From Candidatus Saccharimonadota bacterium (GTDB taxonomy: Bacteria; Patescibacteriota; Saccharimonadia; Saccharimonadales; Saccharimonadaceae), in NCBI GenBank assembly GCA_026395405.1, contig JAPLYU010000003.1, positions 1 to 64,000 on the forward strand: a DNA stretch of 64,000 nucleotides, written 5' to 3'. Both the position numbers and the translations under genes were made by a program. A model generated the notes under the pieces. That model saw only the letters and a list, made by a program, of their open reading frames with translations, searched no databases and had not been told where the DNA came from. The number at the start of each line of letters is the position of its first letter. Within the stretch, counting starts at the first letter, position 1. Below, in pieces: positions 8,424 through 13,699 of the stretch.

Positions 8424-11183
8424 TTATCTTAGTTTTATTGTGACGCCGTCGTCAGACCCGGAGTTTTCCCTTGTGTGGAATTTTTCGGTCGGTGGGGCTT
8501 CGTTTACTGGTTTATTATCACTTGGTGTTGGGGTATTTGCTTTTGGTGCATCAATCTTGGCAATGTTTGCGTTTTTTGACGACTTGGCAATTTGTTCACG
8601 TTTTGCTAGCCATTCGTCCATAAATGACGATCCCGTACTAGTAACATGAGCCACTGGCTTTATTGGTGCCTCTGCCGTCCTTACACCCGACTGGACACTC
8701 TGATTTTTACTAAGTGCCTCTAGTTTTGCCCTTCTGGCTACGTCTCCAGCCTCTAAGCGCGCAAAGATCTCTTTCTCGACCAAAGCCCTCGGTCGACCAT
8801 ACTTAGCCGCAGAGAGCTTTTTAATTGCGTCTTGGAGCAGAGGATTCGGCTTTACCATTGGTGGTATCAGATTCATACTAAAGGCAGATGATGGCACATC
8901 GTTAATCATTACGGAAGTGATGGTTTGAAAGTTTGGTAGTTTAGTAAGATCTTCGGCATCAAACGTCGGCATAAATTTCTTTTGTAGTATTTCTGCATCA
9001 GTAATACCCAAACGACCACTTATTATTGTACCGATATTACCCAAGATGGACTCACGGATATTATCCGTCAGTTGAGTCATAAACTGGTTTGCAAGTATCA
9101 AATTCAATCGGTATTTCCGAGCTTCAGATAAAATCGTTGCAAACGAATCGGTTGCAAAGTTTTGGAACTCGTCTACATACAGGGCAAAGTCTTGACGTTC
9201 ATCTTCGGGAATATCATCACGCCCCATAGCCGCAACTTGAAATTTCATAATGAATATCATACCCAACAACTGAGAATTCAACTCACCTGTTTTACCCTTT
9301 GATAAGTTAACGATAAGGATTTTCTTGTTATCCATGATTTCTCGCAAGTTAAAGCCGCTTTTTGTTTGACCGATAATATTACGCATCATCTCGTTCGATA
9401 AAAATGCACCGAATTTACTTACAAACCATCCCAATACCTCTGATTTATTAGCTTCACTGGTTTGAGCCATCTCTTTATTCCAAAAATCCAATACCGTTCG
9501 GTCTTTGACATATTTTAGTTTCTCATCCGTAAATGATTGGTCATTAAACACCTGCGGAACATCAATAAACGCCGATCCATTAGGGTCGCTCATAATTGTT
9601 AAAGCGGCATTTCTAAACCAATGCTCATATCTGGGTCCAATAATTCCAGTATGCCCTGGGTCGTACAGTTTATATAACATAGCAATCGCTTCTTGTATTA
9701 AAAAGTCGCGCTGGTCTTGAGTTTCAAATTCAAATAAATTCAATCCTATGGGATTCTCCATATCACCTGGAGAAAAATAAATGACGTCCTCTACCCTTTC
9801 TTTTGGTATTACGCCCAACAAACTTTCTGCAGCGTCTCCGTGAGGATCAATAAACGCAAAACCACGACCGTCCATCATATCTTGATATGCCAAATTATTT
9901 AACAAACTCGTTTTACCCGTACCAGTTTGCCCAATAAAGTAAGTATGTCTGCGCCTGTCGTTCGTGCTCAGCCTGATTTGCTTTTTAGTACCACGAAATT
10001 CGTTATAACCCAGTAAAAATCCCTCGTCCATCACCTGTGTGGGTCCGTCGACTTGTTTTGCCATTTGTCGCTTAACTTGTGAGGTAGGGATGCTATTTTG
10101 GTCAGGAAGATGAAATATTGTCGCTAGTTCAACACTATTCAGGATGTTTTGTTTTACGGTTTGTGGGAAAAACCTAAATATATATGCAGTTACTAGCTGT
10201 TCGATGTCTTTTGACACACTGAATTTAAAACCGTTATTGGTAGTTGAATCAAAAAGCGAAAATGCCGCGATAATATTTTTAAGTAAAGATTGCGATCTAG
10301 CTGCCGTATTCGACGATACTACAACTCGTATTAACACCTCATAACCAGGATGTCTCGTCTTTTCTTCAATCGACTCAATCACACCCTGTTCAAGTGACGA
10401 AAGTTGTTTTTCTTCAGGTTTAGTATCGCTGGTTTCTGGCGGTTTCCACAAAGCCTCCATCAGATTTTTTGGTTTAAAGACGTCACCAATACCAGAATTT
10501 TTTACGCCTTTATCTTTTTTAATCTTGTTGGCCATATAGACGGAGTTTTTAGTCCAACCATCTGATGCTGGCCTAATCATCATCTGCACAGCAACTCCGT
10601 CTTCGCGCGTAACAGTCGACAACGCGTTCAGTAATGCCCTAGATGCGTCCAATTTTGATTCTTGATATGTAACTATGGGATACACATAGTTTTTCTTTAA
10701 GGTAAACTCACCGCCAATCGTACCGCTTATTTTTCCTGTTTGGCTGAAAATATTTCGCTCTTCAACTTCTTCTAACCTGGCAGACGGATAAGCAGCAGCA
10801 ACGGCTTGTCGAATAATATCAGTTAATACCGCAGGGACAACTGCGTAATAATATACTAACCCCTCGTAGGCAACTACTTCGAAAGAAATGTGTCTTTGTC
10901 CATATATGCGACTTTTAAACCCCTTTGTGGCAGTGCTGGAAATAATGTTATACATCACCTGTGCCTGTGACAAGGCTTCTTCGGTGATGTCTCTTTCATC
11001 TCGACCATTAGACTCAAGGTCTTCCCCGGAAGGAGGTATGTGAATATGCATCGGAATCATTTTTAACCCACGTTCATAGTTCTTCGCATCCCTCATGGTT
11101 TTTTGGTATTGAGAAAAAACAAAAACGGCGACAACCACACCTATAACCAGAATAATAATTACAGTTATAATTACATTTATCAT
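8424..11183 (-). CDS. Type IV secretion / conjugation-type DNA-binding ATPase (DUF87/TraG-like)
   Basis: 919 aa; FIGQTGTGKTSLLNNL Walker A, FAFIDPHGDAAESLL, ALYVDEFQNFATDSFATILSEARKYRLNLILANQF; N-terminal TM. Confidence 0.8.
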   Translation of the reverse strand: MINVIITVIIILVIGVVVAVFVFSQYQKTMRDAKNYERGLKMIPMHIHIPPSGEDLESNGRDERDITEEALSQAQVMYNIISSTATKGFKSRIYGQRHISFEVVAYEGLVYYYAVVPAVLTDIIRQAVAAAYPSARLEEVEERNIFSQTGKISGTIGGEFTLKKNYVYPIVTYQESKLDASRALLNALSTVTREDGVAVQMMIRPASDGWTKNSVYMANKIKKDKGVKNSGIGDVFKPKNLMEALWKPPETSDTKPEEKQLSSLEQGVIESIEEKTRHPGYEVLIRVVVSSNTAARSQSLLKNIIAAFSLFDSTTNNGFKFSVSKDIEQLVTAYIFRFFPQTVKQNILNSVELATIFHLPDQNSIPTSQVKRQMAKQVDGPTQVMDEGFLLGYNEFRGTKKQIRLSTNDRRRHTYFIGQTGTGKTSLLNNLAYQDMMDGRGFAFIDPHGDAAESLLGVIPKERVEDVIYFSPGDMENPIGLNLFEFETQDQRDFLIQEAIAMLYKLYDPGHTGIIGPRYEHWFRNAALTIMSDPNGSAFIDVPQVFNDQSFTDEKLKYVKDRTVLDFWNKEMAQTSEANKSEVLGWFVSKFGAFLSNEMMRNIIGQTKSGFNLREIMDNKKILIVNLSKGKTGELNSQLLGMIFIMKFQVAAMGRDDIPEDERQDFALYVDEFQNFATDSFATILSEARKYRLNLILANQFMTQLTDNIRESILGNIGTIISGRLGITDAEILQKKFMPTFDAEDLTKLPNFQTITSVMINDVPSSAFSMNLIPPMVKPNPLLQDAIKKLSAAKYGRPRALVEKEIFARLEAGDVARRAKLEALSKNQSVQSGVRTAEAPIKPVAHVTSTGSSFMDEWLAKREQIAKSSKNANIAKIDAPKANTPTPSDNKPVNEAPPTEKFHTRENSGSDDGVTIKLR

Positions 11184-11210
11184 CTCGCTGTTTTTTGTCT
11201 AGGTGACATC

Positions 11211-11630
11211 CTACTCAGCAGCACCTAGTTCCCTCCCGAAGCGTTTTTTCAAATAATCTGCCTGAAGCTTGTTCACCTTTTCATCTTGTAGGTGTGGATC
11301 ATCCCTTGTCTCGGCAACAATTTTTTTAGCCTTGTCGACCCACTCCTTTTCGATTAAATCGTCATCATTTGCAACGGCTGGGTTATTGGATAGACTCGTA
11401 TCGTCGACGGCGTCATCTGTTGCCGTCCCTATAACCGGAGTGGGCAACACCGTAGTTAGCCCTATATCTGCCCTAATCGCGTCGGCCTCACTTTTCCTTT
11501 CATATGCCTCTGCTCCATCGGAAATAGTGTTCTCGGGTGTGTCAAGAATAGGTGCGTTCTCGGCATTTCGTTTCTCTTGAGTAGCCAACTGCTCTGGTGC
11601 AGAATTTTGTGAAGATGACTCTGGTTTCAT
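11211..11630 (-). CDS. Hypothetical acidic protein
   Basis: 139-aa ORF in tandem with the ATPase gene; low-complexity N-terminus. Confidence 0.55.
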   Translation of the reverse strand: MKPESSSQNSAPEQLATQEKRNAENAPILDTPENTISDGAEAYERKSEADAIRADIGLTTVLPTPVIGTATDDAVDDTSLSNNPAVANDDDLIEKEWVDKAKKIVAETRDDPHLQDEKVNKLQADYLKKRFGRELGAAE

Positions 11631-11682
11631 ATCTGTAATTATATCATGTTACTTTGCTAACAACGAGCTTATGCTAACAAAT

Positions 11683-12069
11683 TTAATTTATTCTTTTTGA
11701 CACATATAAACAACCAATAATAATGAAAATTATTATCAACAATATCTCGTAAATACCAACACTTCCTACAGACGATAACCCGATTAGCATTATTGGTCCC
11801 GAAGCAACTACAGTCGAATAATAATAAGAGCGCCTAAACGTTAATTCCTCAATTGGCCTTCTGGGAGCAAGTGTCGCTGAAATTCGCGCAACTACCAGGC
11901 TAGACGCCCGCATTACATACGCAAAAATACCTACTAACGACACATAGGCAAATATAAATATAACTAATATTCCAAAAGGTCCAGCTGTTAAGGGTGTTGT
12001 TACGTTTAACAATATGGCTAGAAGGCAAATGCTAAAAATAGTTACGATTGTGATTAATGTCTTGATCAT
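11683..12069 (-). CDS. Hypothetical membrane protein
   Basis: 128-aa ORF with about four hydrophobic segments. Confidence 0.55.
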   Translation of the reverse strand: MIKTLITIVTIFSICLLAILLNVTTPLTAGPFGILVIFIFAYVSLVGIFAYVMRASSLVVARISATLAPRRPIEELTFRRSYYYSTVVASGPIMLIGLSSVGSVGIYEILLIIIFIIIGCLYVSKRIN

Positions 12070-12104
12070 TCTTTTTTACTATAACACTTTAGCTTTTAGA
12101 CATG

Positions 12105-12487
12105 AAATAAGCCCGAGCGACAAGTCTTAATGCTTGGGTTGCAGCAAACGCCACATATATATAAAAAATTGAGCGTGTGAACCACAAGCAACCTGCCGCT
12201 GCAGGCTATTGACTGACCGCTCCGAGAAAACTCGGGGCATATTGTCTCTTGTACACGTTCCACGACACGTCATATTCAGTGGCAAATACCACATCCAAAA
12301 CGCACGGTACCGATGTACGCGCTACACGCCTTTGGCGGAGCATCAGCGACGCCACGTTTATTTTGATCATATCTTAACAATACAATCGACAAAACACAGT
12401 TGTCGTCACCGACTTTCCGTCAAAGCCTACGGTCAGTAATTTAATTTTTAAGGTATTTTTTGGTTTTTTTATTTTTGGTAAAACCTA
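12105..12487 (-). ncRNA. Candidate structured non-coding RNA (unidentified)
   Basis: Promoter TTGACC-17-TATGGT (minus, 12521..12493), then multiple hairpins such as CGACAA/TTGTCG, CGCC-AAA-GGCG, GTGG/CCAC, CTCCGAG-AAAA-CTCGGGG and CCTGC/GCAGG; no convincing ORF. Confidence 0.5.
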
Positions 12488-12492
12488 GTAGT

Positions 12493-12521
12493 ACCATAGC
12501 ACAAGCGTGTTAATCGGTCAA
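12493..12521 (-). promoter_or_regulatory. Sigma70-type promoter TTGACC-17-TATGGT
   Basis: Minus strand TTGACC GATTAACACGCTTGTGC TATGGT. Confidence 0.6.
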
Positions 12522-13144
12522 CTCTGTATTGATTATGTATTGTTGTAATTATTATATTTTTACATATAAATTTTGTATTATAAGGTGTTAAATATATATA
12601 CTAACAAATATATTACGTTGTTTTAATTACTACTGTATTTTAATCTTCTTCAATCCCTCTTTGTTGAATTTGTAGTTTATTGAAAACACTTGTCTATTTT
12701 TTTGATAATTTTTGCTTACTCATTTCAGACAATATTTAGAATCATTCCAACGTTTTTCTGATATCTAATAAATTATAATGTTGTGAGTTGTCCTTTTTTA
12801 GACGTCACGATTAGTTAGCCTGTGGCAAGCATTTTCACATTTTCGATTATTCCAATCGACTATTTTCTATTTATGATTTTAATGCTTTTTGTGTTCTTAG
12901 TTTTTATGGTTCAATTCTAACTCAATGATTATTTTAATTATTATTTTCGTTTTTCACAATGCATGTATGTTGATTGTTTTTGCCACTATGGGTCGCAGCG
13001 TTACATTATCCAGGCAATATTTACTTCCTCATTCTTGTCTATTTCATGTATATTTGTCACAATTTTAATTAAATTTAGGCGTTTTGACTAATACAGTGTT
13101 GTTATAGCGTAGTATTTTTTACTAGACAATTTTGATAAAAGTTA

Positions 13145-13173
13145 TTGACACAAGCGCTTTGTAGTCCTATTAT
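13145..13173 (+). promoter_or_regulatory. Near-perfect consensus promoter TTGACA-17-TATTAT
   Basis: TTGACA CAAGCGCTTTGTAGTCC TATTAT read directly. Confidence 0.7.
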
Positions 13174-13179
13174 AGGGGT

Positions 13180-13277
13180 AGCTTCTGAATAAATTAATTA
13201 TACAGGGGCCCAAAACAAACACATAGAAAAAACTCCACAATAAAAAACAACCGTTCCTCGCAGGCGGTTGTTTTTTT
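13180..13277 (+). ncRNA. Candidate ~95-nt small RNA ending at a terminator shared with tmRNA
   Basis: Begins ~7 nt after the TATTAT box and ends at AACAACCG...CGGTTGTTTTTTT. Confidence 0.5.
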
Positions 13278-13286: not shown

Positions 13287-13699
13287 TGGTGGAGCTGCGG
13301 GGAATCGCACCCCGGTCCGAACGGTAACTGATTATTACTCTACAAGTTTAGTTTGACTTACTTTTTTACGACTCTCATAACTTAAAATCAAACAAAAAAC
13401 GCTATGATTGTCGCGCAATAATATTTCCCAAAATAGCGTTGCTCCCCACTACTTCGGTAATCAGCATACTTATAACACCACACCGCCTCTATGCTGACTG
13501 GGTGATGTGATGGCACGAATTAAATCCGAGCTGTTGCTAGAACTGGCAACTGAAAAGCACTGGCAATGCCAGAAGCAGTCTCAGCTACATAGTTTTTAGC
13601 TTTTGCAATAAATGTTGCAATTATTTTTGTACTTAACGAGTACATCCGACTTGCAAATAACCTGTTAAAATCCATTCGTCGAAAGCTAATATCAGCCCC
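13287..13699 (-). ncRNA. ssrA: Transfer-messenger RNA
   Basis: Minus strand starts GGGGCTGATATTAGC...TTTCGACG and ends CGGACCGGGGTGCGATTCCCCGCAGCTCCACCA; in-frame tag-like ORF inside. Confidence 0.95.

Follow-up and report, generated by a model that had tools for sequence, protein, structure and literature searches.

A structured non-coding RNA, uncatalogued in Rfam, that is carried across most of an order of Saccharibacteria and lies beside a membrane-protein gene

The RNA gene and its immediate surroundings

The window analysed here, a stretch of 64,000 nucleotides from a Candidatus Saccharimonadota bacterium, encodes on its minus strand a structured non-coding RNA, of a class absent from Rfam, whose locus is best explained as a stand-alone gene. 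The existence of a real structured RNA at this position (approximately 12487 to 12105) is virtually certain. It is followed on the same strand by a gene for a small membrane protein of 128 residues (mem128), behind which lie p139 and a TraG/VirD4/HerA-like ATPase (8424-11630, minus strand in the window), as they do behind the membrane protein throughout the order. The features of the locus are:

12493-12521, minus strand: promoter of the RNA, TTGACC-17 nt-TATGGT (consensus scan; conserved in the genus)
12105-12487, minus strand: structured non-coding RNA, long form, approximately 380 nt, with predicted start and end (fold z-score, presence in the genus, covariation)
12462-12485, minus strand: 5' hairpin with an A-rich loop, GGUUUU...AAAACC (alignment of the genus leaders)
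12443-12453, minus strand: conserved single-stranded leader motif, CCUUAAAAAUU here and CCUUAACAAUU in most relatives (genus alignment)
12404-12424, minus strand: 5' strand of domain I, UUUGACGG and UCGGUGACG, pairing with 12331-12351
12331-12351, minus strand: 3' strand of domain I, CGUCGCUGA and CCGCCAAA, pairing with 12404-12424
12219-12238, minus strand: hairpin GCCCCGAG-UUUU-CUCGGAGC, directly 5' of the motif that follows, its stem varying in a compensating manner in the genus
12212-12218, minus strand: near-invariant motif GGUCAGU, GGUCAGUC in its order-wide form (invariant in genus alignment A1)
12109-12207, minus strand: 3' domain, a long hairpin closed by AGCCUG/CGGGCU (CAGGCU in most relatives)
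12158-12173, minus strand: AU-rich apical loop of the 3' domain, conserved in the genus and the order
12078-12083, minus strand: separate -10 element of mem128, TATAGT, 8 nt before the ATG (TGNTATAGT across the genus)
11683-12069, minus strand: mem128, the 128-residue membrane protein that follows the RNA, its candidate protein partner

The minus-strand promoter claimed in a first-pass annotation of this DNA was recovered by a consensus scan (TTGACC at 12521-12516 and TATGGT at 12498-12493, with a TG just before the latter) and is kept across the genus alignment as TTGAC...TATGCTA; transcription is expected to start near 12487. In other families, a promoter of the TTGAC type is found upstream of the RNA at 30 of 30 loci, as compared with 16% of random 220-nt windows. 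The GC fraction across most of the element is 0.45-0.53, versus 0.15-0.3 upstream, in agreement with the compositional difference from the AT-rich neighbouring DNA described earlier, and no convincing ORF was found within the element, as had also been stated. When folded, the minus strand reaches -129.7 kcal/mol (z = -4.4), a value matched by 0 of 100 dinucleotide shuffles, whereas the z-score of the plus strand in the same comparison is only -1.8. Judged from the promoters and terminators read in the sequence, the RNA would be transcribed as a discrete molecule.

The first-pass annotation had suggested an Rfam search and an examination of covariation among relatives, and both were carried out. 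A scan of Rfam 15, at the gathering threshold and relaxed to E 10, returned no match at 11650-13250 and nothing beyond chance up to E 10, and Rfam likewise gave no match over the RNA in relatives. In the window as a whole Rfam 15 identifies RNase P, tmRNA, tRNAs and 16S rRNA; the first two lie at other positions (as the annotation had noted), and an identity with either (RF00010, RF00023) was rejected on that ground. The tmRNA is a separate, full-length neighbour on the same strand (13287-13699, minus strand; 106 bits in Rfam, missed by ARAGORN), and the RNA described here, in contrast, lacks a tRNA-like end. Most other families of the order have no tmRNA above the Rfam threshold near the RNA locus. 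The covariation analysis gave a strong compensatory signal among relatives, which, together with the negative Rfam result, supports the original claim of an unassigned structured RNA with its own promoter. A description of such an RNA was not found in the literature searched, which included few subscription journals, such that a prior account is possible; the main text of two large surveys of new bacterial RNAs does not mention Saccharibacteria.

A conserved fold built around a short core

Within the genus, a search at the DNA level recovers the RNA from 25 of 28 genomes; all 17 genomes of good quality have it. In the aligned loci the promoter, the core and the 3' end are conserved and the inserts are variable, and RNAalifold applied to 21 full elements yields a strong covariation term. 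The helices that are conserved turn out to be of longer range than those named in the first-pass annotation, several of which are local accidents. Three of its hairpins (CTTT-GACGG-AAAG, CGACAA...TTGTCG and GTGG...CCAC) are not conserved in the genus alignments; a fourth, CGCC-AAA-GGCG, competes with a long-range helix formed by UUUGACGG and CCGCCAAA, which is 98% paired in the genus and is also visible by eye in the divergent locus L011; and the bases assigned to CCTGC-AGCG-GCAGG in fact make up a single strand of a 16-pair helix, the one closing the 3' domain. The hairpin CCCCGAG-TTTT-CTCGGAG, by contrast, was correctly assigned, and changes in its stem compensate across the genus.

The domain I helix (genus consensus UUUGACGG-UCGGURACG with CGUYRCCGA-CCGCCAAA) is paired in 98.8% of cells, and it is nearly invariant, with both sides changed in only 3 of its 16 pairs, so that the support it receives from covariation is weaker. 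The 3' domain is paired in 95.8% of cells (28-42% in slid controls), with compensatory change in 18 of 29 pairs, and 8 of the 16 pairs of its closing helix (AGCCUG-C-AGCGGCA.../...UGUCGCU-CAGGCU) show such change. A further pairing, CUGACCG with CGGUCAG, appeared in the minimum free energy and RNAalifold folds; it was not accepted, because full complementarity of the two strands holds in only 9 of 21 genus members and because the short forms found in other families do not have this 5' domain.

In those other families of the order the RNA is only about 160-200 nt long, and its core can be described as three hairpins. The 5' part consists of a hairpin, GUAAG-(AAAAACAAAAA)-CUUAC, with an A-rich loop, which is the same element as the A-rich 5' hairpin of the window (random rate of the A-rich motif: 6.6%). 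The middle part is a hairpin, CGCUC...GAGCG, followed by GGUCAGUCA; it is the homologue of the hairpin at 12219-12238 and is 95.1% paired, with both sides changed in 5 of 5 pairs, and the adjoining GGUCAGUC is at least 95% conserved at most positions in 40 rows from the order. The 3' hairpin, GGACGRUAA-G-CGCU-(AU-rich loop)-AGCG-GAU-UUAYCGUCC, carries an asymmetric internal loop. Over the 18 core pairs, 98.2% of cells are paired and 17 pairs show compensatory change in an alignment of 51 distinct rows that was fitted to the model and includes one antisense row; the covariation score is 0.456, versus 0.195 (sd 0.009) for shuffled and at most 0.122 for slid alignments. An alignment of 11 sequences made with MAFFT agrees (97.5% paired, both sides changed in 5 of 18 pairs). 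In the window's family, this core of 160-200 nt has been enlarged by a further domain of roughly 200 nt.

Distribution within and beyond the order

Of 246 genomes sampled from the order, about 191 carry the RNA according to the combined covariance-model searches; they belong to 33 families. Some detections depend on models that had been trained on neighbours of the hits. With the model of the 3' domain, the RNA is detected in 40 members of the window's family, and other families give weak matches; retrained models detect it in 154 of the 246 genomes, of which 151 lie outside that family and represent 32 others. It is single copy and syntenic throughout the order. One match, L069 (genome G060, near 472 kb), lacks synteny and was discarded as a false positive; the genuine copy in G060 is located by the retrained model at C2:227956-228057. 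In two genera (g3 and g8) of f1, the family to which the window belongs, near-complete genomes are listed without a match to either model, and their RNA is either lost or too diverged. A Saccharibacteria form of the RNA beside a HerA-like gene was also encountered at L088, on a 2.1-kb contig (C155 of G514) that is binned outside the order and may represent Saccharibacteria contamination of another bin.

Outside the order, the order-level model matches genomes of other classes in families f91 (two genomes), f83 and f81, with per-genome E-values of 5e-6 to 2.9e-4 that are rough, as for all of these home-made models, and that compare with a chance expectation of about 0.1 such match in 382 genomes. 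The retrained model adds f74, f98 and further members of f81 and f83, none of which was in its training set. A match in G568 (E 1.8e-4) looks unconvincing, and those at L096/L116, L100-L103, L107, L108 and L110 were set aside as weak, several of them lying within coding sequence.

The RNAs of other classes are about 400 nt long, with A-rich segments (AAACAAAAACAAAA) and an extra 5' domain. Their 3' hairpin is of the same type, again interrupted by an asymmetric internal loop. Conservation of GGUCAGUC does not extend to them. In seven loci (L093, L094, L095, L099, L113, L115 and L119), the 3' strand of a 5' hairpin (for example CUCUCUGUCCGU or CCCCUACUAUUCGU) has a second possible partner further along the RNA (for example ACGGUGAGAG or ACGGUAGGGG), a hint of alternative folds.

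Some of these RNAs are supported by gene context (with neighbours named from their sequences, and DksA/TraR confirmed by Pfam). In L121 and L122 the order is TrpS, RNA, small membrane protein and PheS, and the membrane protein and PheS also lie beside the RNA in L092 and L113. In f81 the order is RecA, RNA, DksA/TraR and LspA, and in f91, f61 and f98 it is RNA, (Lgt), DksA/TraR and LspA, in some cases followed by ComM, a gene that adjoins the RNA locus in Saccharibacteria as well. Homology of the RNA is firm within the same class and probable in other classes, and a homologous RNA likely exists outside the order. The first-pass annotation had considered the RNA unassigned and possibly lineage-specific; the former description stands, and the range has proved to be wider, extending over nearly the whole order and probably into several other classes of Patescibacteria.

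A possible membrane ribonucleoprotein and its rivals

A hydrophobic ORF of about 94-131 residues, on the same strand, lies behind the RNA, usually at a distance of 15-125 nt. This holds for 18 of 18 loci of one context set, of which 17 belong to the order and one to the class, and for 29 of 30 loci of another. The encoded proteins align as one divergent family, with 14-30% identity between families. They share a proline that follows the first hydrophobic stretch and, in the C-terminal part, the pattern S-(V/I)-x-Q-(L/I)-x-x-x-(D/E)...Y. The same protein family follows the RNA across the order and in L092 and L121 of the same class, and similar proteins follow it in L113 and L122 of other classes; mem128 and its relatives match nothing in Pfam or NCBIfam.

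This arrangement recalls that of OLE RNA of the Bacillota, also a large structured non-coding RNA, which has a membrane-protein gene as its immediate neighbour. It was this proximity to the gene of an uncharacterised membrane protein that first suggested the complex between OLE RNA and OapA; OapA, which has four transmembrane helices, binds OLE RNA at the membrane (PMC11332333). The present RNA differs in its size and host (160-400 nt in Patescibacteria, versus about 600 nt in Bacillota), and OapA is CNNM/DUF21-like, unlike the protein family found here. The Rfam covariance model of OLE does not match the RNA, and this, together with the unrelated neighbouring protein, excludes membership in that class; OLE RNA may be regarded as the closest functional analogue, which the RNA would resemble in its manner of working at most.

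On that analogy, the RNA would act in trans as the scaffold of a membrane ribonucleoprotein, and its main partner would be the small membrane protein of the adjacent gene. Contact would likely be made through GGUCAGUC, through the A-rich and AU-rich loops, and through the 1x3 internal loop in the 3' hairpin. The parts of this reading differ in strength. That the RNA is an independent, trans-acting unit is quite probable. That it works with the adjacent membrane protein is possible, if somewhat short of probable, and the combined picture of a trans-acting RNA within a membrane ribonucleoprotein is put forward with the same reserve. The rapid divergence of the membrane protein counts against the partnership, which moreover cannot be universal, since DksA/TraR or Lgt takes the protein's place in f81, f91, f61 and f98. 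The broadest version is on the unlikely side: a previously undescribed, Patescibacteria-wide housekeeping RNA that, together with a small protein, would make up a membrane ribonucleoprotein in cells whose phylum no longer has SRP.

The strongest rivals to the ribonucleoprotein are a regulator in trans that has no membrane partner and a cis-acting leader. The first of these, rather unlikely in our estimation, might be a protein sponge acting through the A-rich loop, a 6S-like RNA that regulates polymerase, or an antisense RNA acting through GGUCAGUC or CCUUAACAAUU. Conservation of the A-rich loop across the order and in other classes is consistent with a sponge, and some forms in other classes resemble CrcZ-type RNAs in having A-rich single-stranded segments between hairpins; but the sub-threshold CrcZ match of an A-rich stretch in L097 (E 4.3) is at chance level, and the RNAs of the order usually possess one A-rich loop rather than a series of binding repeats. 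A likeness to 6S RNA exists in that both are stand-alone structured RNAs with promoters of their own, but RF00013 finds no match in the window's genome, and the multi-hairpin fold has neither the single rod nor the central bubble of 6S RNA. The near-invariance of GGUCAGUC would suit an antisense role, against which stands the lack of conservation of that motif in the RNAs of other classes.

The second rival, a riboswitch or attenuator that would sense a signal and control the membrane-protein gene through a conditional terminator, appears quite unlikely. The RNA does lie on the same strand and a short distance (usually 15-125 nt) before the ORF, and in many other families of the order a hairpin resembling an intrinsic terminator, recognised by eye, stands between the two in the usual layout of an attenuator. 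The gene in the genus nevertheless has its own conserved -10 element, TGNTATAGT, 8 nt before the ATG of mem128, such that its mRNA is probably leaderless or nearly so; this element and the terminator-like hairpins argue for two transcription units, although a conditional terminator would look alike. The RNA also precedes other genes elsewhere, and a conserved anti-terminator pairing was not seen in an unsystematic inspection.

It is highly improbable that the RNA is a strongly diverged SRP RNA or that it replaces SRP in this phylum, from which Ffh has been lost. The distribution of the RNA resembles that of a housekeeping gene, and a conserved RNA beside a membrane protein, with a possible link to the membrane, would fit a role in protein targeting. 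SRP RNA itself was undetected in the genus (RF00169 matches 0 of 28 genomes even at E 10, and RF01854 gives two chance-level matches elsewhere), and neither model matches the RNA element. The Ffh M domain (PF02978) was found in none of the 28 genus genomes and in none of the 21 RNA carriers tested, and is missing from 381 of 382 sampled Patescibacteria, the single positive (G546) being possibly due to contamination; two SRP subunits have been described as absent in many CPR bacteria (PMC8080830). With Ffh lost phylum-wide, there is no Ffh to bind the RNA, co-occurrence is uninformative on substitution for SRP, and an argument for replacement on that basis was rejected. A GGAA-capped helix 8 motif was also not seen in the alignments. 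Finally, the notion of a decayed gene, repeat or chance fold, to which the rapidly changing inserts might point, can be given next to no probability for a single-copy element with order-wide synteny, and it is contradicted by the covariation, with its compensatory change in 17 of 18 core pairs.

Bacterial RNAs that are as structured and as widely conserved as this one are rare, and are usually central to the cell; the present example occurs in most species of the Saccharibacteria, an order of tiny parasites, and is uncatalogued in Rfam. Saccharibacteria are genetically tractable, by means of natural transformation and transposon mutagenesis (PMC10633639), which makes deletion of the RNA and pull-down experiments feasible. 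In streamlined parasites that lack Ffh, the RNA bears on the membrane or gene-expression processes of very small cells.
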